The position numbers were made by a program, and so were the translations under genes. The notes below the pieces were generated by a model that did no database searches, was not told the origin of the DNA, and was given only the letters and a program-made list of their open reading frames with translations. From a virus, in IMG/VR virus record IMGVR_UViG_3300017593_001578, positions 1-25,458 of that record: a stretch of 25,458 nt of DNA; one strand, written 5' to 3'. This document shows positions 1,607-15,217 of this stretch, one piece after another. Position 1 is the stretch's first letter, and every line of letters starts with the position of its first letter.

Positions 1607-1619
1607 AGAGAGGATGTTT

Positions 1620-2894
1620 ATGAATCTCCTTGAAAAAGTTAAATTTAAAGTTTATAAGAAATTACAAAAATCAATAAGGGGCATTCCTCTTGAGGCTGAG
1701 GAGGAAGAATTTAAGAAAAGTAAAGACCCTGCAATGACTGATTACCTTGAACTATATAAAAACTATGTATGGGTCTATTCAAGTGTTTTTGCGATTTCTT
1801 CTGCTTGTGCAATGATTCCACTTAAATTTTATAAAAAAGTTAGTAAAAATAAAAAGATACCACTTGATGAAAATTCTGAAGTTGGCGCTTTATTTTTTCG
1901 CCCCAATCCCTGGATGTCTTCTTTTGACCTATGGGAATGGACATTTGGATTTCTTGAGTTGACTGGAAACTGCTTTTGGGAAGTGACTTATTCTGAGAAA
2001 GGCGGACGAAAAAAGCCAGTTCTTCTTTCGCCGCTTAGGAGCGACAAGATTAAAATCATTCCAGATCCTAAACGAAAGATCCAAGGATATGAATATGAAG
2101 TGAACGGAAAGAAGATATTCTTTGAGCCAGACGAGATAATTCATTTTAAATATTTCAATCCCACTTCTGAATATTGGGGCATGACTGCTCTTTCGCCTCT
2201 CCAACAGAGCGTAATAATTGATTTATATACCATGCTATATAACAAAAGATTTTTTCAAAAAGGAGCTAAAATGAGTGGGATTTTGGAGACGGACAGATCC
2301 CTTACTGATAACACGATTCAAAGACTACGAAAGCAATGGGAAGAAACTTATGCCGGTGCTTCTAAATCTCATAAGACTCTCATATTAGAAGAAGGGCTGA
2401 AATACAAACAAATTGAGGCCTCAAAAGGAGATATGGAATTTTCTGAAGGAAGAAAACTTTCAAGACAAGAGGTAATTTCAGGTTTCGGAGTTAATCCGGC
2501 TAAGGTTGGAATTTTTGATTTAACGACCTTTGCTTCTGCCTTTGAGATGAAAAGAGCTTTTTATGAAGATACTATTCTGCCTAAATTAAAAAAGGTTCAA
2601 GCACACTTGAATGAGTTGGTTTTTCCTAAATTTTTCACCAATGTATTTTGTGAATTTGACATATCGGGCGTAGATGCTCTTAAAGAAAATCTGGATATTA
2701 AGACCAGAATTTGGGAACGTGTTCTTAATTGTGGTGTTATGACAATAAATGAAATAAGAGCCCAGGAAGGACTTCCGGCAGTGCCATGGGGTAACGAGCC
2801 ACACTTCTCAACTCAGAGAAAGCAAAAATACGATGCTAGGACAGGTGGGCCCGACAGGGGATTGCCCGAGAACCCTAGAACTGAGGAAGAATAA
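1620..2894 (+). CDS. Portal protein, HK97-type (Phage_portal family)
   Basis: The portal forms the dodecameric ring at one capsid vertex through which terminase pumps DNA and to which the neck attaches. The protein has 424 residues, normal for the family. The recognisable core is the stretch WGMTALSPLQQSVIIDLY (about residue 185), followed by NKRFFQKGAKMSGILETD and, further on, RQEVISGFGVNPAKVGI, which is the pattern of the Phage_portal (PF04860) fold with stem and crown helices. An in-frame ATG at 1614 directly abuts the AGAGAGG motif at 1607-1613 and has no spacer. The ATG at 1620 has a 6-base spacer and is preferred. The C-terminus is polar and rich in Gly, Pro and Glu, probably a flexible tail. 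The stop overlaps the next gene by one base (TAATG). Confidence 0.92.
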   Translation: MNLLEKVKFKVYKKLQKSIRGIPLEAEEEEFKKSKDPAMTDYLELYKNYVWVYSSVFAISSACAMIPLKFYKKVSKNKKIPLDENSEVGALFFRPNPWMSSFDLWEWTFGFLELTGNCFWEVTYSEKGGRKKPVLLSPLRSDKIKIIPDPKRKIQGYEYEVNGKKIFFEPDEIIHFKYFNPTSEYWGMTALSPLQQSVIIDLYTMLYNKRFFQKGAKMSGILETDRSLTDNTIQRLRKQWEETYAGASKSHKTLILEEGLKYKQIEASKGDMEFSEGRKLSRQEVISGFGVNPAKVGIFDLTTFASAFEMKRAFYEDTILPKLKKVQAHLNELVFPKFFTNVFCEFDISGVDALKENLDIKTRIWERVLNCGVMTINEIRAQEGLPAVPWGNEPHFSTQRKQKYDARTGGPDRGLPENPRTEEE

Positions 2895-3418
2895 TGGCCA
2901 TTTCAGCGGATTCTTTGGTACCGGTTTGGACCAGAGAGAAAAAATGGAAAATCTTTCGCGCCTCTGAGATTGAAGGGTTCAAAATTTTGAGCTTGAAAAA
3001 AAATGAAAGTCCCTTCTTGGCCAAACTCCATCGCGAAAAAAATGTTAAAAACATTTTTCCGGATGGTCTCAGAATCTATTACGGAGAACTATTTGATTTT
3101 ATGGAGGTTACTCCAGATACGCCGATAGTAATATATTTAGACGGTTTAGGCCGGATCAAAGCTTCGAACTTAAAAGTAGGTGATGTAATCCCCACTTTGA
3201 ATCCCTTTCAATTTGGATTTGATTTTTCAAATTCAATTTTTAAGTTCGAGCGAATAATGAAAATTGAAAAAATTGATTTAATTGAGGCTATTCCTTTTAG
3301 ATTAAGAGCGCAAAATGGAACTCATTATTTTTTGTGTGATAAAATTTTTATAGGAGATTTCTATCTTGAAAGAACTCTTAAAAATAAAAAATCCCCTCGA
3401 TTACAAAATTCCATCTGA
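2894..3418 (+). CDS. Hint/intein-like domain protein, apparently inactive
   Basis: This 174-residue protein shows features resembling the Hint (hedgehog/intein) fold. Residues 73-101 read TPDTPIVIYLDGLGRIKASN followed by LKVGDVI, matching the block A pattern of inteins (GDT-V-x-DG-x-I-x-L-x-VGD-x-I). Residues 137-155, with GTHYFLCDKIFIGD, resemble the C-terminal block with its THxFf...I.HN pattern. The N-terminal part has a weaker second copy of the opening motif (ADSLVPVWTRE, 5-15, and FKILSL). The Cys or Ser nucleophile and the terminal His-Asn are absent at the expected places, so self-splicing looks unlikely. It follows the portal by a one-base overlap and overlaps the next gene by 53 bases. 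It could be a decayed intein or a structural Hint-fold protein. The fold call is an inference from pattern. Confidence 0.5.
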   Translation: MAISADSLVPVWTREKKWKIFRASEIEGFKILSLKKNESPFLAKLHREKNVKNIFPDGLRIYYGELFDFMEVTPDTPIVIYLDGLGRIKASNLKVGDVIPTLNPFQFGFDFSNSIFKFERIMKIEKIDLIEAIPFRLRAQNGTHYFLCDKIFIGDFYLERTLKNKKSPRLQNSI

Positions 3419-4547
3419 CGAGAGGGTTTTGGCAGACGACTTTCGTATTTGTTTGGCTTGGCTTTCTTCGGTCAAAAAAGGCGAAAAATTTAAATTTACT
3501 GAGCGACAAGTAATATCTATTCTCAAAAAAATTATAAATGCGATTCTTACTAAGTCAAAAATTACAATTCACTTACCGGATATTAAAGAAAGAGATTTAG
3601 TTTTTTCACTTATTAAGAAAAAGGTCCATAAAGTAATCGAGGTTTCTGATCCTGCACTCATAATTAAAGGAGTTCAAACCGCTTTCCTATCTAAGAAAAA
3701 ATATAGTGGACTTTACTTTCTAGCAGATGGGAGTTTTTTGCCAAAGGAAAAAATTTACGATGGTAAAGAAGATATTTGGGGTGTGATTAGGGTTGATTCT
3801 TCTAAGAAGATAGATCCCAGTAAATTTTTAGAGTACTTTGATGAACATAGAGTTTCCGAGGATGATTATGAAAAAACTTTTTTTGATTCTAAAGTATTGT
3901 ATCTTAACCGTTTTTCTTTGGTGGCTACGAATAAGGAAATTAGAAAAGCGTATGCGAGAGTTGGAGGATCTGGGGAAAAAATTGGAGAAACAATTAGATT
4001 ACCTGAGATCCTTGAAAAATTGGAAAGTTTTGTAATTTCAGATCCGTTTATTTTTTTGACTGGTGGTTTAGTAAATAGAGGCGAGACTGCAAATGATATA
4101 GATGTTCTTATAAAAGGCAATCTTCCTGACCATGTTTTAAAACCTATTTGGTTCAGAATGTTAAGACAGCTTCCTAAAGAATTATGGCATAGGTTTCAAC
4201 TTCTTCAGGATGAAGGTTTAGGGCCTTACACTTCCTATGTTCCTATTTATCGTCTAAAAGTTGAACGTATTCGTCCGCCCATTAGAGTTGAGTTGTCGGC
4301 GAAAGAAGCTCTCGCTTGGGATATGATAAAGGCCGAGGTTAGAGTTAAAGATCCTAAAGTTAAAAGAGAAGCTGAGCAAAGCAAGAAAGAAGATAAAGTA
4401 AAACTTTTCAGGTTTTTCTATCCTCTAAAAACTTCACTCTCAGCAATTCAAGCTTATCGGAAGGGGGAAATTTATCAGATTGATAAAGTGATAGAGTATT
4501 TTAAAAAACTTGAAGAAAGACGAGGAAAGAAAGATGAAACTCCATAA
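3366..4547 (+). CDS. Nucleotidyltransferase-fold protein (DNA polymerase beta superfamily signature)
   Basis: This 393-residue protein has an unassigned N-terminal half and a central segment FIFLTGGLVNRGETANDIDV (residues 228-247). That segment fits the polymerase-beta-superfamily nucleotidyltransferase motif: a Gly-Gly turn (233-234), then Asp-x-Asp (D244, D246) that would bind metal. The third acidic residue usual to the family cannot be placed with confidence. The Lys/Glu-rich C-terminus contains a segment FRFFYPLKTSL (348-358), AYRKGEIY and a helix. The start is TTG at 3366. It has an AGGAG at 3352-3356 with a 9-base spacer, and no in-frame ATG is available near it, so the 53-base overlap with the previous gene looks genuine. 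Family members transfer nucleotides to DNA, RNA, proteins or small molecules, and the substrate here is unknown. The DNA ligase/phosphoesterase gene at 11692 makes DNA end repair an attractive but unproven idea. Confidence 0.6.
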   Translation: MKELLKIKNPLDYKIPSDERVLADDFRICLAWLSSVKKGEKFKFTERQVISILKKIINAILTKSKITIHLPDIKERDLVFSLIKKKVHKVIEVSDPALIIKGVQTAFLSKKKYSGLYFLADGSFLPKEKIYDGKEDIWGVIRVDSSKKIDPSKFLEYFDEHRVSEDDYEKTFFDSKVLYLNRFSLVATNKEIRKAYARVGGSGEKIGETIRLPEILEKLESFVISDPFIFLTGGLVNRGETANDIDVLIKGNLPDHVLKPIWFRMLRQLPKELWHRFQLLQDEGLGPYTSYVPIYRLKVERIRPPIRVELSAKEALAWDMIKAEVRVKDPKVKREAEQSKKEDKVKLFRFFYPLKTSLSAIQAYRKGEIYQIDKVIEYFKKLEERRGKKDETP

Positions 4548-7098: not shown

Positions 7099-9336
7099 AT
7101 GGCAAATTATAGCCCGAAATTAAGAGGGATAGATCTTCTATCCTTATCTAAAGATTTCTATGAAGTTCTAAGCCTCTCTGACCAAATTGAGCCCTTGAGG
7201 GGAAAACATGGAACTTTTGGGGATTCTGTTTCCCTATCCGAATTCAGGCAAAGCAAGATCCTCAAAAACCCTTCTGAAGTAATGAATATCTCAGAAGATT
7301 TCTCTTGCTATGTTCCTAATTTTACACCTATCTTAAGGGCTATTGATCTTTTAGGTCTATCCCTCTCGTTTTCCGAAATACTATCTCTTAGCGATGAAAT
7401 TTTGCCGTTAAGAGGAAAACACGGTTTCTTGGATGATAGCTTTCAGCTTGTTGACAAAATCTCGAAATTTGAAATCGGGAAAGGAGTTTCAAGTCTGATT
7501 TCGATTTTAGAGGAATTTTCTATTCCCAATTTTAGCCCAGTATTATTTGCTCTAGATCTTTTACTGAAACCGCTTCAAGAAGGTAGTGACACTTTGCTTA
7601 TTTCCGAGCATTTCAGTATAAAAACTTCTGCTCCTATTTCTCTTTATGACTTGGTGGAAACCTCTGAATTGTTTTCAAAATTGTCTGAATTTAGACGAAC
7701 CTTTCCCGAATCTCAGGCTATCGGCGAATCCATCCTTAGGGCCGTTTCTAAATATTCTAAAGATTTACTTTCGCTCGAGGATCTTTTTGAATATGAATTG
7801 GGAAGGGCGACTTTGCTTTACGATATTTTATTAATGAGTGAAATTTTTAATTGGCAAACTTCTGGGGCGGTGGGGCTACATGATTTCTTAAAGTTGAAGG
7901 AATACTTTCAAAAACAAATTGCCTTTCCCTTAAGTGGCGCTCTGACTTTTTCAGATTATTTTCAAATGAAACCTCAGCTTAAAGAATTTGAGTCTATTCC
8001 TATTTCAGAGACCGATTACAATTTTGTAATTGGCAAGGGTTTCTATTCTGCTATTCCAGTTTGGGAGTCTAGATTTTATTTCAAATTACCAGTTTTTCGA
8101 CCAAGAGATTTTCTATTAATTGGTGAATTTCCATCTAAAATAATTTCTAGATCAACCGATGAAATCCAAAGTTTTCTTGATGAACTTCAATTACAATTTT
8201 GTAAGAACAAAGAAGATTTTCTTGATTTTTCAGAATTTAGAAATTCTGATCTTGGTAAATTTATTCAGGATAGTCTAGATAAGATTTTTGATAAAATTTC
8301 TTTTTCTGGAAATATAAATTTGGTTCTAAGGGAAACACTTTCATTATATTCGGACTTATTGGCTAGTTTTCAAAAAGAAGCCATTGATAGTGTTTTCAGT
8401 TCAGAGCAAATTTCTACCGCTATTTCAAAATTCTTTTTGGAGATTTTTCAGGTTTATACAAGTCAATTTACCAAAATATTTGGTAAGGAAGGTTCGCTTC
8501 AATATACCTTGGAATTTTTTACCGATTTCTTCTCAAATGAAAATCTTGAATATACTTTAGCAAAGCTTTGGGAAGAATTTCTTTCTGATACGCTCAGCTT
8601 TTTTGAAAGGCCTAGTCTTCATAATGGGAAATTTCTTGTTGAGAGCCCGATTGATTTCTCTGAAAAACTTTCCATTAAAGCGCCTCGCTGGAACTTATAT
8701 GATGAGGAAATTATTTCTGAAATTTTTAAGATAACAAGAGGTGTGATCCGAAGCTTTTTTGAAAGCCTTGAAATGGCGGAGGATTCTAGCCTTAAATTTA
8801 ACTCTGAAAAATTTGAATCGCTTTTATTGGAGCAAAAAGAGTTTTTCTTTCAAGTTGTAAAAAATCATTTTGAGCAGCAAGGCTTATCTGACTTATTTAG
8901 CTCCAGGAGCCAACTATTCAAATTTGACCAGCTTGAAACTCAGGGCTGGGTCAATAAATTGGTTGGAAAAAATTTCTTTGAAGACCTTTTAATAAAATTT
9001 GAGAGTCAAGAAAAATTTTTTAAGAAAAATATAGAGACAAATCTTCTCTTGAAGGAGCTGCTCCAAAAAATAGTAGGCATTTCCAAATATGATAACATTC
9101 ATTTGTCAGAGCAGCCTTCAATTCAAGTATTAAAAAAGATTCAAGATTTTCAAATTCTATCAGCATATTTTTCAATTTCAGTTTTAAAAACAATTTCTGA
9201 AATAGTTACAATTAGTTCTAAATTTCAGAGCGATCTATATAGAAAGATTGTGAGATTAGTAACTCTTTATGTCCAAAGGGCGGATTTTGTAGCCCTGGAA
9301 CAATTACGTAAATCCATAATTGAGTTAGATTTGTGA
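7099..9336 (+). CDS. Large leucine/serine-rich repeat protein, probable fibre or tip component
   Basis: This 745-residue protein is made largely of imperfect repeats with the recurrent short pattern L-S-L-S-x-x-F (LLSLSKDFYEVLSLSD, LLGLSLSFSEILSLSDE). Two large units align clearly: residues 3-73 and 74-143. Both begin N-[YF]-[ST]-P-x-L-R-x-I-D-L-L and share PLRGKHG, and a third copy starts at 144 (NFSPVLFALDLL). Beyond that the repeats decay, but the pattern of aromatic, Leu and Glu residues continues. No enzymatic motif, signal peptide or membrane segment is seen. Its place among fibre genes suggests an elongated virion structure. The stop TGA overlaps the next gene's GTG start (GTGA). Family unknown. 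Confidence 0.6.
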   Translation: MANYSPKLRGIDLLSLSKDFYEVLSLSDQIEPLRGKHGTFGDSVSLSEFRQSKILKNPSEVMNISEDFSCYVPNFTPILRAIDLLGLSLSFSEILSLSDEILPLRGKHGFLDDSFQLVDKISKFEIGKGVSSLISILEEFSIPNFSPVLFALDLLLKPLQEGSDTLLISEHFSIKTSAPISLYDLVETSELFSKLSEFRRTFPESQAIGESILRAVSKYSKDLLSLEDLFEYELGRATLLYDILLMSEIFNWQTSGAVGLHDFLKLKEYFQKQIAFPLSGALTFSDYFQMKPQLKEFESIPISETDYNFVIGKGFYSAIPVWESRFYFKLPVFRPRDFLLIGEFPSKIISRSTDEIQSFLDELQLQFCKNKEDFLDFSEFRNSDLGKFIQDSLDKIFDKISFSGNINLVLRETLSLYSDLLASFQKEAIDSVFSSEQISTAISKFFLEIFQVYTSQFTKIFGKEGSLQYTLEFFTDFFSNENLEYTLAKLWEEFLSDTLSFFERPSLHNGKFLVESPIDFSEKLSIKAPRWNLYDEEIISEIFKITRGVIRSFFESLEMAEDSSLKFNSEKFESLLLEQKEFFFQVVKNHFEQQGLSDLFSSRSQLFKFDQLETQGWVNKLVGKNFFEDLLIKFESQEKFFKKNIETNLLLKELLQKIVGISKYDNIHLSEQPSIQVLKKIQDFQILSAYFSISVLKTISEIVTISSKFQSDLYRKIVRLVTLYVQRADFVALEQLRKSIIELDL
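7105..7527 (+). repeat. Two diverged 70-71-residue coding repeats in the large repeat protein
   Basis: Protein residues 3-73 and 74-143 of the gene at 7099 are diverged copies. Shared landmarks in order are the NxxPxLRxIDLL opening, LSLSD, PLRGKHG, a DS turn and a final EEF/EDFS-[CI]. A partial third copy begins at residue 144. The DNA copies have drifted, so this is an old duplication, not a recent slippage tract. Confidence 0.7.
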
Positions 9337-9683
9337 GGTTTCGCTTTGGACCCCTTCTTCAATTTAAATTTTGGCACGAAAGATTCTTTGAGGACTTTGA
9401 GAGGGGATGGAAAATCTCAGGAAGTTTTTCTACCTTATTCCTTGAAAGCTTCGAAAACGGATGGAATATTGAGGGAAGTTTCTCCACCTTATTTTTTGAA
9501 GACTTTGAAAGTGGTTGGGAAGGTTCTGGAAGTTTTTATGAAATATTTTCAGAGGATTTTGAAAGTGGTTGGTCCATTGAAGGCAGTTTCAATACCTTAT
9601 TTTTTGAAAGTTTTGAAAATGGATGGACTATCTCAGACAGTTTCAATGTCTTATTTATAGAAGATTTTGAAAGTGGATGGTAA
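9333..9683 (+). CDS. Protein built of 18-residue tandem repeats (FxEDFESGW type)
   Basis: A 116-residue frame starts with GTG at 9333, which overlaps the previous stop. After a short aromatic leader (MRFRFGPLLQFKFWHERF) it consists almost entirely of five and a half 18-residue units: FFEDFERGWKISGSFSTL, FLESFENGWNIEGSFSTL and so on, ending with FIEDFESGW. The unit resembles the opening strand of LamG/concanavalin-like domains as found in the proteins at 4690 and 9700, but no full domain follows before the TAA. The GTG start has only weak RBS support, and a second frame is also open through the repeats (TTG at 9346). The frame chosen gives the motif shared with its neighbours. Function unknown; probably an appendage component or the remnant of one. 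Confidence 0.55.
   Translation: MRFRFGPLLQFKFWHERFFEDFERGWKISGSFSTLFLESFENGWNIEGSFSTLFFEDFESGWEGSGSFYEIFSEDFESGWSIEGSFNTLFFESFENGWTISDSFNVLFIEDFESGW
9384..9680 (+). repeat. 54-bp tandem repeat, about 5.5 copies
   Basis: Five complete 54-bp units and one half unit run head to tail inside the gene at 9333. Each unit encodes 18 residues with conserved F-x-E-[DS]-F-E-x-G-W and G-S-F positions. Units 2 and 5 (with FESFENGW or LESFENGW) are closer to one another than to the others, suggesting alternation of two sub-types. The unit length is a multiple of three, so gain or loss of copies would keep the frame. Confidence 0.85.
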
Positions 9684-11515: not shown

Positions 11516-11695
11516 ATGAGTGAGAAAACCTGTTGGGATTGTATCCATTTTCAAAGTGCTGGTTTAAAATGGCTTAATGATTTTGCCTGTTTAAAGTTTC
11601 CAAACAAAATTTTTAAAAATAACGATTTCAAACCCTGTGAACACTTTCAAGAAAGAATTAGAAAAAGAAAAAATAGTCAAGGAGCCTTAAAATGA
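11516..11695 (+). CDS. Small four-cysteine protein, possible zinc-binding
   Basis: A 59-residue protein has a CxxC pair (C6, C9 in TCWDCIHF), C25 and C41 (PCEHF), a spacing that could hold one zinc ion. The basic tail (ERIRKRKNSQ) could touch nucleic acid. The ATG at 11516 follows a strong AAAGGAGG with GGAGG at 11506-11510. Longer in-frame starts upstream overlap the previous gene and lack an RBS. The stop is joined to the ligase start as ATGA, so the two are coupled. Function unknown. Confidence 0.65.
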   Translation: MSEKTCWDCIHFQSAGLKWLNDFACLKFPNKIFKNNDFKPCEHFQERIRKRKNSQGALK

Positions 11696-14274
11696 AGTTT
11701 TATGCACAGAAAAAGTACGATGGAATAGCCTCTTCTATTCATTATGATGGTAAGGATAAGGTTTTAATTTTTTCTGATGACGGCTCCGATATTACCTCAA
11801 GGCTTCCCTGTATAGTCAAGGAAGTTAAGGAGATCCTTAAATCTCACTCTGCAATTTTATTGGCCGAGATTGAAAAGTGGAAGGGCAATGAACATCTTGG
11901 ACGCGAATTCATGTCAGGTTATTTGCATGAAAAGAGCCCGCCTGAATGCGAAGGTTTAGTGGCTAATGTTTTTGATATAGTTTATTGGGACGGAAAGGAT
12001 ATTCACAATTTACCCTTTGAAGAAAGATTACTTTATCTCAAGAAAATCCCTTTCAAAGAATCGACTATTGGTGTACCCAGAAAAGATGTTTATCTCAATT
12101 TGTCTCCGACCTATTTTGTAGATTCTGAAGAAAAAGCTAAAACTGTATTGAATAAACTAGCTAACGCCCCAGCCTCCGAGGGCGCTATGCTGAAACTTCC
12201 AGATTTTAAATACTCATTAAGTGGGAGCACGACAGGATTAATTAAATACAAAAAATATGCCGAGATTCATGCAATTGTCTGGGCTAAACAGAGAACGAAA
12301 GATGGAAAGGCTTACAATTACTACTTTGCAATTAAATTTGATCCAAATGATAATGTTGAACCAAATAGCGTAGTTGAAGTCAAGGGCAAAGAATATCTTA
12401 AGGCTGGGCGGACTTATAATACTAAAACAAAATGTGATATTGGCGATAAAATTACAGTAAGATTTCATTCTTTGAATTTATATAAAAATTATAAGACCGG
12501 AAAAATAAGAGTACATTTATATGAGCCTATATTTTATGAGAAGCTAGATGAAGATGCTTCCATTGATTCGGTCAAAACCGTTCTTAGCATAGGAAAAGAA
12601 TCCGGCCTTTTGAATGAGAAGCTGATCAAAAATCCTCAATTTTTGAGAATCGAACCCGGCACGGCTATCTTAACTCATTCAGTTGTATTGCCTGTCAATA
12701 TATCCCATTGTAAAATCCTAACTTCGAATCCATTTTTCCAGAAAGTTTTAGAAAATGAAAACGACTTCAAAGGTTTTTCATCTTTTCTAAAAGCTGAACT
12801 TCCTCCTGATTTCAAGGGTTTGAATAAAGTGGGTTTTATCCATCCTAGTTTCTTATATGCAATTCAAACAGAACAGATTTCTTATGATGAGGCTCGAAAT
12901 TTAATTACAAAACTTCTCTTTGTCGCTGAGGAAATTGAAGGTCCAACTGAAAAACTCAAAAGCTTAGGAATTTTCAAAGCAGCTAATATATATTTAGTTT
13001 ATCCTGATGAATCCAAGAATTACAAATATGTAATTCAAGCCCACTTCAGAGGAAAGTCGGTTCATTGGGACTTGAGGATGGAAAGTTCCGATAAAGATCA
13101 TTTAATAGGTTGGACTATTGATGTTCAAATGCCGGGTGTTCTTAAAAAGCCGGTTCTTACCATGGAAGATGCCAGAGAAGCCTTGAAAAATTCCAAACTA
13201 TGGAAAATAAATCCCCTAAGCGGCGAATGGGCTAAGAGAAAAAGAGGTTCCAAATATGTAAATGTATCAGTTCTTTGTGAAACTAAAGCTAAAGAACCCC
13301 TGCCCTGGATGGATTTCGAGGGGGTTACAAGAGCCGGCGGAAGAGAGGGCGAGCCAGGCTCTACTAAACAATACCCTGGAGTATTTATAATCATAGATAG
13401 GGGCGAGGTTGAGTATCTTGCGCAAAAAACCTATGTCCATGAATACTTCTTTCACGGCAAGATTCTCAAGGGAAGATATGTAATGAGACAACTTGAAAAT
13501 ATTTGGAGAGAAGAAAACAAAAATCTTGATTTTTTTGAGAAAAATGCTATATTATCAGTAGAAGATCAACTATTTGAAAAAAAGATTGAAGCACCAATAG
13601 AACCGCCAGTTGGACAGAGCCCAAAGGGTAAGGCTGCTTGGTTTTTTATAAGACCTAAGGATCAGACTCCTTATGTTCTTTCAAATAGGGCTGTCAAAAA
13701 AGAATGGTTGCCACCTAAAGGGATTTCGGCAATTCAGAGAGAACTAAGAAAGAAGGTTCCAAAAGAACTTCAGTATTGGAAGGTTGCCGACAGAAAAAAG
13801 GCTTTGGAACTTCGGAAGGAACTCAGAAAAAAATTTCTTGATTTGAAACTTATTAAATCCTTACCAACTGGAAAGTTTGTTTTACAATATCAATACTGGA
13901 GAGGTCCTATCATAATCAGAGAGGGTCCGTCCAGAGAACAATGGAATCTTCTGTTGGATTTTGGTGGTAAATTACTTAAATTTGTTTTAAATGATAATAT
14001 TTTAGAAGTTAATAAAACGGCGGGCTATGAGGATAAAGTTAAGGCTGAGGATTTTTCAGCTGAGGGTGAAATTAAGCCTAAAACTCGCCTGAATCCGACA
14101 AAGGAAACACCTTGTTGGATTGAAAAGTTAGATTCTGGTTCATTCAAAGTATTTGATAAAAAACCCTCCTTTATCAAAGTTGAGTTTAAGGGTAAGAAGT
14201 TAGGAGGGCTTTGGGCTTTTTCTAAAAAAGAAAATGTTTGGGAAATAGAAAGATCAAAACTTCCAGGAGAATAA
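11692..14274 (+). CDS. ATP-dependent DNA ligase fused to LigD-type 3'-phosphoesterase domain
   Basis: An 860-residue fusion. The N-terminal nucleotidyltransferase of an ATP-dependent DNA ligase shows motif I K8-Y-D-G (the adenylated Lys is K8), a motif III-like FDIVYWDG (94-101), motif IV SEGAMLK (162-168) and motif V GLIKYKKY (182-189). An OB-fold-like part runs to about 280. A LigD-type 3'-phosphoesterase domain lies at about 440-605. In it, YVIQAHFRGKSVHWDLR (446-462) supplies H451, H458, D460 and R462, and YVHEYFFHGKILKGRY (581-596) the later His/Tyr motif. It carries about 100 extra residues between these motifs. A second phosphoesterase-like copy (about 727-770) lacks the catalytic residues. 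Such enzymes seal nicks and trim 3' ends in bacterial end joining. No primase-polymerase domain is fused, and the order is ligase then phosphoesterase. It is placed directly before the prohead protease. Confidence 0.85.
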   Translation: MKFYAQKKYDGIASSIHYDGKDKVLIFSDDGSDITSRLPCIVKEVKEILKSHSAILLAEIEKWKGNEHLGREFMSGYLHEKSPPECEGLVANVFDIVYWDGKDIHNLPFEERLLYLKKIPFKESTIGVPRKDVYLNLSPTYFVDSEEKAKTVLNKLANAPASEGAMLKLPDFKYSLSGSTTGLIKYKKYAEIHAIVWAKQRTKDGKAYNYYFAIKFDPNDNVEPNSVVEVKGKEYLKAGRTYNTKTKCDIGDKITVRFHSLNLYKNYKTGKIRVHLYEPIFYEKLDEDASIDSVKTVLSIGKESGLLNEKLIKNPQFLRIEPGTAILTHSVVLPVNISHCKILTSNPFFQKVLENENDFKGFSSFLKAELPPDFKGLNKVGFIHPSFLYAIQTEQISYDEARNLITKLLFVAEEIEGPTEKLKSLGIFKAANIYLVYPDESKNYKYVIQAHFRGKSVHWDLRMESSDKDHLIGWTIDVQMPGVLKKPVLTMEDAREALKNSKLWKINPLSGEWAKRKRGSKYVNVSVLCETKAKEPLPWMDFEGVTRAGGREGEPGSTKQYPGVFIIIDRGEVEYLAQKTYVHEYFFHGKILKGRYVMRQLENIWREENKNLDFFEKNAILSVEDQLFEKKIEAPIEPPVGQSPKGKAAWFFIRPKDQTPYVLSNRAVKKEWLPPKGISAIQRELRKKVPKELQYWKVADRKKALELRKELRKKFLDLKLIKSLPTGKFVLQYQYWRGPIIIREGPSREQWNLLLDFGGKLLKFVLNDNILEVNKTAGYEDKVKAEDFSAEGEIKPKTRLNPTKETPCWIEKLDSGSFKVFDKKPSFIKVEFKGKKLGGLWAFSKKENVWEIERSKLPGE

Positions 14275-14275
14275 A

Positions 14276-15217
14276 ATGGAAAAAGAAAAACCAAAATTCA
14301 ATTTTCCTCTTCTAATCGAAAAAAGCATGGACGAAGATGGCGATTGGATTGTGGAGGGATTTGCTACCACCTCCGACCTTGACCTTGAATATGAAATAGT
14401 TTCTAAGGAGGCATATACAGATGCCGCTAAAGATCTCCTCAAATATTCTACGGTTCTCTTCAACCACGAAGTAGATAGGCCAATAGGCAAAGTTATAGAA
14501 GCTGAGCCCAGAGATGAGGGCCTCTTTGTCAAAATTCTGATTTCAAAGAGTGTTCCTGAAATTTGGACTAAAATCAAAGAGGGGATCTTAAATCACTTTT
14601 CCATCAGGGCTTGTATCGAAGACTACGAAAAGGAATATAATCAAGATGTTGGACGTGAAGTTCTTATTGCTACTAAGATGAGAATTTTGGAGGTCAGTTT
14701 AGTTTCCGTTCCCGCCAATCCTAATGCTAGATCTATTAGATGGTACGTCCAAAAAGCTTTTAAGGAGCTAGAAGAGAAAAACAAAAAAGAGGTAAAGAAA
14801 AACGAGAACGAAAAAGAAAAGGAGAAAAAGATGGGTGCAATTGAAATAATTCTAGACTTGCTGAAAGAGTTAAAACAGAAAGTCAAGGATGACTTAAAAG
14901 ATGAGGTGGAAAAGATCATAACAGAGATGGGTAAGCTTCAGCGAAGAGGGCAGAATTATCCTTATCCCTATCCGTACCCTTATCCATATCCTTATCCAGC
15001 CCCGAAAAAAGAAGCAGATCCTAACAACGAACCAGAAATTCAGAAAAATGGTGATCCAGAGCCAAAACCGAACGAAGAAGATATAGAAAAGAAAGTTGAG
15101 GCTAAGGTTCAGGAAAAAATCAAAGAATTGGAAGAGGGTTGGAAGGAAAAAGAAAACAAGATCTTAGATGCCCTTTCTTCGCTTAACCAATTAATTCAAG
15201 ACTTAAATAAAGAATGA
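14276..15217 (+). CDS. Prohead protease with C-terminal scaffold-like region
   Basis: The first 160 residues are an HK97-type prohead protease (S78 type), which cleaves scaffold and the capsid delta domain during maturation. The expected catalytic sites are visible: H64 in LFNHEVDRPIGKV, S109 in HFSIRA and an acidic residue before SLVSVPANPNA (E139 or a neighbour). From about 165 a Lys/Glu-rich helix (165-225) follows, then a (Tyr-Pro)7 tract at 228-241 and a second charged coiled coil (268-313), as expected for a fused scaffold. AGGAG at 14265-14269 serves the ATG. An internal in-frame ATG at 14831 with its own RBS-like sequence could yield the scaffold part alone. The capsid gene follows within 15 bases. 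Confidence 0.9.
   Translation: MEKEKPKFNFPLLIEKSMDEDGDWIVEGFATTSDLDLEYEIVSKEAYTDAAKDLLKYSTVLFNHEVDRPIGKVIEAEPRDEGLFVKILISKSVPEIWTKIKEGILNHFSIRACIEDYEKEYNQDVGREVLIATKMRILEVSLVSVPANPNARSIRWYVQKAFKELEEKNKKEVKKNENEKEKEKKMGAIEIILDLLKELKQKVKDDLKDEVEKIITEMGKLQRRGQNYPYPYPYPYPYPYPAPKKEADPNNEPEIQKNGDPEPKPNEEDIEKKVEAKVQEKIKELEEGWKEKENKILDALSSLNQLIQDLNKE
14831..15217 (+). CDS. Possible internally initiated scaffold protein (in frame within protease gene)
   Basis: Residue M186 of the protease gene (ATG 14831-14833) is preceded by AAAAGGAG ending at 14824, a 6-base spacer. The resulting 128-residue protein would start MGAIEIILDLLKELKQ and contain the coiled coil, the YP tract and the C-terminal helix, but no protease. 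Lambda makes its scaffold Nu3 in the same way from inside the protease gene C. The surrounding codons are Lys/Glu-rich, so a purine-rich RBS-like string can arise by chance. I therefore regard this as plausible only. Confidence 0.4.
   Translation: MGAIEIILDLLKELKQKVKDDLKDEVEKIITEMGKLQRRGQNYPYPYPYPYPYPYPAPKKEADPNNEPEIQKNGDPEPKPNEEDIEKKVEAKVQEKIKELEEGWKEKENKILDALSSLNQLIQDLNKE
14957..14998 (+). repeat. Hexanucleotide tract encoding (Tyr-Pro)7
   Basis: Seven consecutive TAT/TAC-CCN pairs encode residues 228-241 of the protease-scaffold protein. The third positions vary (cct, ccc, cca, ccg), so the tract is kept at protein level and is not a fresh slippage repeat. It separates two charged helices and would form a stiff extended linker. 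Confidence 0.85.

Follow-up and report, generated by a model that had tools for sequence, protein, structure and literature searches.

The nearest precedent that we found for an orphan, dead intein is Arsp-FB24 Arth_1007 of Arthrobacter FB24, an inactive orphan intein pseudogene annotated as being of phage origin, which PMC3196547 describes as similar to inteins with no recognizable host protein, as missing the block-B His and a catalytic Cys and as unable to splice. The subject here is a freestanding open reading frame (ORF), ORF 2894-3418, in IMG/VR virus record IMGVR_UViG_3300017593_001578, whose whole stretch of 25,458 bases (hereafter the window) includes terminase, portal, prohead protease and capsid genes. 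Its product, called the Hint-like protein below, is like Arth_1007 in these respects and would, on the reading that we favor by a modest lean, be a strongly diverged, splicing-dead orphan Hint/intein domain of mini-intein size. Arth_1007 differs in having 66 residues of exteins, in belonging to class 3 and in being recognizable by sequence, whereas the window protein has no N-extein and is seen mainly by profile (PMC3196547). The phiCbK terminase intein is likewise an intein of a phage packaging gene with neither Cys nor Ser at position 1, where it carries Pro; it differs in spanning 341 residues inside the terminase and in having His-Asn and a following Ser (PMC3556154). The 136-residue mini-intein of a related phage locus (L066, PLHPH/C) resembles the Hint-like protein in size and in lying downstream of a portal gene, with a global alignment z of 3.6-3.75, and differs in being inserted in MuF, in having Cys1 and His-Asn, and in its matches to PF14890 and PF04233. 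Bacterial intein-like (BIL) domains sit within larger proteins. They too are Hint domains distinct from ordinary splicing inteins, and differ from the window protein in having retained cleavage chemistry (PMC7664689). No literature on a freestanding Hint domain in a phage was found.

Similarity to inteins was measured with profiles built from inteins of related phages and of phage records. These profiles were rebuilt several times; no profile from which scores were taken contained the Hint-like protein, and one mini-intein (L153), whose first residue was not placeable, was omitted. Two target sets were searched, one of 451 sequences (the Hint-like protein, 330 random plus-strand ORFs of 110-280 residues and 120 shuffles) and one of 876 (the Hint-like protein, all 575 plus-strand ORFs of 100-300 residues and 300 shuffles). 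With an N-part profile of 27 inteins the Hint-like protein ranked 1/451 at an hhalign probability of 74.9 (P 2.6e-5), the next target reaching 4.99. Smaller profiles of 6, 10 and 14 inteins gave probabilities of 25.0, 24.6 and 18.6, respectively, the last of these ranking the protein 1/876 with the next best at 6.3 and 0/300 shuffles above it. A profile of five full-length mini-inteins aligned residues 69-152 co-linearly, from block B toward the terminal-block end (probability 15.6, rank 1/451, next 4.1). When 177,635 PDB sequences were searched with phmmer at E up to 10, the only two matches were both to the Pyrococcus horikoshii (Pho) RadA intein (E 0.034 and 0.072), residues 70-109 aligning with its block B. 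This mini-intein (PDB 4e2u, 2lqm), which we take to splice and to carry Cys1, His and HN, would in those respects be unlike the Hint-like protein. Global alignment to the five mini-inteins gave z of 2.0-3.7, with 1 to 29 of 1000 shuffles as good, and in a mini-intein HMMER search none of 2000 shuffles scored above the Hint-like protein, the 18 higher ORFs looking intein-bearing. We consider Hint homology of the product likely, and the protein would at best be a very diverged member of the Hint/intein group.

An earlier note on this DNA had drawn attention to the ORF, and its coordinates and quoted motifs are correct: TPDTPIVIYLDG begins at residue 73, LKVGDVI ends at residue 99 and THYFLCDKIFIGD occupies residues 143-155. 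Its block labels are doubtful. The segment at residue 73, which it had called block A, is more likely block B, as profile alignments set residues 71-99 at block B and continue co-linearly onward; the supposedly weaker opening motif at residues 5-15 corresponds to an opening motif at residues 2-11 that is likely block A itself. A block-A matrix from 27 inteins, with position 1 omitted, scored highest at residue 71 (EVTPDTPIVI, 12.6), residue 2 (AISADSLVPV, 7.4) and residue 92 (7.2), so that residue 2 barely exceeds residue 92. As a start-of-ORF score, the value at residue 2 was equalled by 4/1479 other ORF starts and 5/2000 shuffles, and MAFFT alignments set Ala2 beneath Cys1. Block A at residue 71 would leave an 85-residue domain with no space for block B, and block A at residue 2 a domain of 154 residues, a normal mini-intein length (133-166 residues in the five full mini-inteins). 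The Hint fold has pseudo-twofold symmetry (PMC7664689), and we suggest that blocks A and B are alike because of it. The placement of block B at residues 71-99 rests on the KASNLKVGD segment and on an alignment that runs on co-linearly to the C-terminus, and it makes AISADSLVPV at residue 2 block A. At the other end, the C-terminal matrix has its best sites at residues 140/141, the co-linear mini-intein alignment reaches residue 152/153, and MAFFT alignments set Gly154-Asp155 beneath His-Asn after misaligned row ends had been trimmed; two of the alignments made place parts of the protein differently. A test of block order with sites 2, 71 and 140-155 found block B well supported, block A and the terminal block individually weak and the A/B labels partly ambiguous. 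The Hint-like domain would likely span residues 2-155, with block A directly after Met1.

The absence of Cys1/Ser1 and of the final His-Asn, which the earlier note had reported, is confirmed. On the layout above, the first position of a class 1 splicing intein, Cys or Ser, is taken by Ala2; the block-B TxxH is incomplete, reading T73-P-D-T76 with the Thr kept and the His replaced by Thr76; the penultimate His and terminal Asn are replaced by Gly154 and Asp155; and the +1 Cys, Ser or Thr is replaced by Phe156. Neither a host protein nor exteins are present, as only three codons precede Met1 in the open frame (177 codons versus 174) and the portal gene ends upstream in a different frame. Because there are no exteins, the protein cannot splice; given Hint homology, the lack of splicing is close to certain, and any other chemistry would presumably have been lost as well. 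Class 3 inteins carry a Cys at block F position 4. Assignment to class 3 (WCT motif) was rejected: by eye, an Arg (FRLRAQ) and no Cys stands at about this position, and the sole nearby Cys, Cys148, lies 7 residues ahead of Asp155. The role of the Cys in class 3 inteins is described in PMC7664689.

Several results weigh against the assignment to the Hint group. Neither Pfam nor PHROG models match the Hint-like protein up to an E of 1, nor do NCBIfam models up to an E of 10, while all five inteins of relatives that were compared match PF14890 with E values no higher than 4.3e-4 (only one of them above the Pfam cut-off); PF14890 has no match anywhere in the window's record. HMMER gave E 0.69 with the 27-intein profile and 0.65 with the mini-intein profile over 3981 ORFs and 2000 shuffles, and the mini-intein score of 8.7 bits is not separated from the 8.3 bits of ordinary ORFs. 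Profiles of the C-terminal intein part miss the protein (in one test 22/2000 shuffles scored higher), its C-terminal motif alone is weak (17/536 control ORFs score as well), and its N- and C-terminal parts alone match no intein in the PDB. The five mini-inteins align with one another at z 6.3-13.3, far above their z to the Hint-like protein; local alignment to two mini-inteins was weak, with 45 and 50 of 1000 shuffles doing equally well, and global pairwise alignment to L018 does not place block A at residue 2. The codons of the ORF show no decay, which counts against a plain pseudogene: its codon score is 0.316, compared with 0.139-0.388 in 20 other scored window genes, on which the codon table itself was built, and at most 0.146 in the other five frames of the region.

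Structure prediction, which the earlier note had proposed as a check, speaks neither for nor against the Hint fold. A single-sequence AlphaFold2 model had a mean predicted local distance difference test score (pLDDT) of 36.6, and its best Foldseek match was unrelated (E 1.6). A second model, made with an alignment of 13 intein pieces whose row ends had been trimmed beforehand, remained of low confidence at a mean pLDDT of 45.3, with block means of 65-78 for residues 1-30 and 57-61 for residues 71-100; as this alignment presupposes the Hint answer, the model is not independent. Its two best Foldseek matches were RadA inteins, both weak (E 1.3 and 2.9), and VIA-align over 17 chains, a list that held one intein entry, returned the PolII mini-intein 5bkh weakly (Z 3.4, root-mean-square deviation 3.1 over 43 residues). 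The earlier suggestion of a freestanding Hint-type domain without splicing residues, directly behind the portal gene, gains support that falls short of proof. The low confidence of the models and the absence of a curated family also suit a different origin, that of an unrelated, mostly beta orphan phage protein, cargo in a variable slot, whose LKVGDVI-type motif resembles block B by chance or convergence. Consistent with this explanation, the strongest signal covers only some 30-70 residues around block B, HMMER fails to set the protein apart from ordinary ORFs, the C-part profiles are negative, and the content of the slot varies. A chance resemblance is harder to reconcile with ranks of 1/876 and 1/451 well clear of the next target, with co-linearity over 84 residues and with the placing of the start motif, and we judge this explanation somewhat unlikely.

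The features discussed are collected below. The ATG of the ORF overlaps the stop codon TAA of the portal gene (TAATG). At its other end, AGGAGA occupies the codons of Ile153-Gly154-Asp155. The product of the next gene carries a GG...NDID motif that we take to be nucleotidyltransferase (NTase)-like. Because NTase-like genes of two relatives (L033 and L048) have N-termini that align with that of this product, the TTG start is credible. The proposal that the Hint-like region is the N-terminal part of this NTase-like gene was rejected on the same grounds, since that frame begins at the TTG. ORF 2894-3418 is plausibly a real gene in the phage head operon.

Table. Positions in the window of the Hint-like ORF, its putative blocks and the adjoining genes and signals
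Feature	Positions	Strand	Remarks
Portal protein gene	1614..2894	+	PF04860, E 1.4e-74
Shine-Dalgarno-like GAGGAAG ahead of the Hint-like ORF	2883..2889	+	From sequence; putative function
Hint-like ORF	2894..3418	+	174 residues, freestanding; only three further in-frame codons upstream (177-codon open frame)
Probable block A	2897..2926	+	Residues 2-11, AISADSLVPV; Ala2 at the Cys1/Ser1 position; start-motif score and MAFFT alignments
Probable block B	3104..3190	+	Residues 71-99, EVTPDTPIVIYLDGLGRIKASNLKVGDVI (VTPDT...KASNLKVGDVI); Thr73 kept, conserved His replaced by Thr76; phmmer and hhalign
Probable terminal block (G)	3311..3358	+	Residues 140-155, QNGTHYFLCDKIFIGD; His-Asn replaced by Gly154-Asp155; C-terminal matrix and mini-intein alignment
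AGGAGA, likely Shine-Dalgarno sequence of the next gene (TTG 3366)	3352..3357	+	From sequence; putative function
19-residue ORF tail	3359..3418	+	Positions 3366-3418 are shared with the next gene, which is read in a different frame
NTase-like gene	3366..4547	+	TTG start; no Pfam match

No homologues were found in IMG/VR, species genomes or phage records. Among 18 whole viral records, the window's own included, the Hint-like protein matches itself only, and two further records contain no match; the record of L031 likewise has no match to the ORF. A plasmid search returned one match, which at E 2 is not meaningful, the best phmmer hit over the ORFs of six later loci (L141:190-798, 8.9 bits, E 0.012 for this small set) was taken as noise, and a guessed block-A DNA pattern gave nothing useful in the window's record. 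The locus was compared by reading with those of 12 relatives (L003, L004, L032, L033, L034, L035, L042, L045, L047, L048, L139 and L141; in the last two the portal was assigned from its position), and other fetched portal loci were screened by phmmer and profile, some of them also being read; the phmmer screen yielded no homologue. A Hint gene directly behind the portal was present in 0/12 relatives read. The slot is variable and holds an NTase-like, a metallo-beta-lactamase (MBL)-fold (L042, PF12706), a MuF (L048, PF04233), a glycosyltransferase-like or another gene. It is here that the suggestion of a domesticated, non-catalytic Hint must be weighed, in which a structural or binding protein derived from a mini-intein would serve in the virion or in assembly of the portal vertex. 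A place immediately downstream of the portal, the overlapping start and the intact, coding-like frame would accord with such a protein; its absence from the slot of the 12 relatives and the lack of homologues speak against it. We regard this alternative as improbable, a virion role of any kind carries little weight, and a conserved assembly factor is unlikely because none of the relatives read has a Hint gene in the slot. The earlier note's virion or assembly factor is on these grounds not supported, and the relatives that it had envisaged, with the domain fused to the portal or with catalytic residues kept, did not emerge from the homologue searches.

The first intein profile was run over 3981 distinct ORFs, drawn from the window and from 136 loci, one of which (L001) is itself part of the window. 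Of these ORFs 17, each exceeding 550 residues by its coordinates, passed the inclusion threshold, 10 of them being profile members. Reading of the sequences located inteins at the terminase Walker A motif (e.g., L004, L034, L035, L038, L047, L059 and L060, of the type GPRGSWK/C...HN/S), at a second terminase site (L017 and L018), in a ligase protein (L033) and in a glycosyltransferase-like gene (L015:801-3110); the 474-residue terminase of the window has none. The HPxC motif of MuF also carries an intein, in L090:1092-4190, where MuF itself is fused to the portal, and in L066:6394-7803, which lies below the profile threshold. All of the relatives' inteins read are insertions in larger proteins, and none was freestanding. 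Descent of the Hint-like protein from a MuF intein was rejected as unsupported, the MuF mini-intein being only one among several about equally weak matches; MuF was not found in the window's record or in that of L031.

Retained activity is very improbable. The Hint domain would in that case employ an unusual chemistry, with a class 2-like Ala1 and a terminal Asp155, to cut between Asp155 and Phe156 and release the 19-residue tail. Class 2 inteins do carry Ala1, inteins that end in Asp are known, and both His residues are replaceable (PMC7664689). In the Hint-like protein all canonical positions are changed together, a combination for which no precedent was found in the sources consulted; the +1 residue is Phe, there is no N-extein, and the tail lies mostly within the overlap with the next gene. 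Least credible of all is a degenerate MBL-fold domain, which was rejected as a remnant because, although such a domain or gene lies at about this place in L042 (PF12706), L045/L140, L038, L039 and L047, the protein has no profile similarity to the relatives' MBL domains (six-domain profile probability 0.4, rank 106/876, 39/300 shuffles at or above; global z -0.6 to 2.5).

Between the portal and the prohead protease lies a set of genes resembling nucleic-acid repair functions, comprising MBL-fold, NTase-like and ATP-dependent DNA ligase members (window 3366-4547 and 11692-14274; L042:5064-5639; L038:7781-12292; L140:2234-6160; L033:8657-13783), which in some loci are fused in proteins of more than 1000 residues. 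The ligase has a weak LigD-phosphoesterase-like region (PF13298, E 0.08). L139:3215-6505 encodes a protein of 1096 residues with a DNA ligase domain (PF01068), the N-terminus of which resembles, on visual inspection, a degenerate MBL domain. The window's ligase is encoded with 100% identity in L031 (IMG/VR 3300017593_001694), which, to judge from its position, seems to continue the same phage beyond the window. Elsewhere in the window, positions 9333-9683 hold a short ORF of tandem repeats (FENGWxIxGSFxTLFxE type), and the C-terminal half of the prohead protease (14276-15217) contains a run of (PY) repeats.

Returning to the orphan Hint/intein domain that we favor as the simplest account, its history may have begun with a mini-intein freed from its host gene, without an N-extein, which would have gained a start codon at its first residue and come to lack the catalytic residues. 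It may have been retained, or has so far escaped loss, as a small cargo gene lying between the portal and NTase-like genes. Translation of the ORF probably depends on start/stop coupling to the portal gene, and the last codons of the ORF would hold the likely ribosome-binding site for the gene that follows. If the protein still has a role, it would be a non-catalytic one, either binding or only the handing on of ribosomes; a mild function may persist, as the frame is intact and coding-like, contrary to plain decay.

The significance is modest, because the fold is unproven, the searches found no homologue that would allow function to be tested, and there is precedent for an orphan dead intein. 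If the product is a Hint protein, it would represent an intein that persists as a coding gene in its own right after the loss of both its host gene and its chemistry, in a phage group that has inteins in several genes, the terminase above all, and it would be a natural case in which to ask whether the Hint scaffold by itself is of use.
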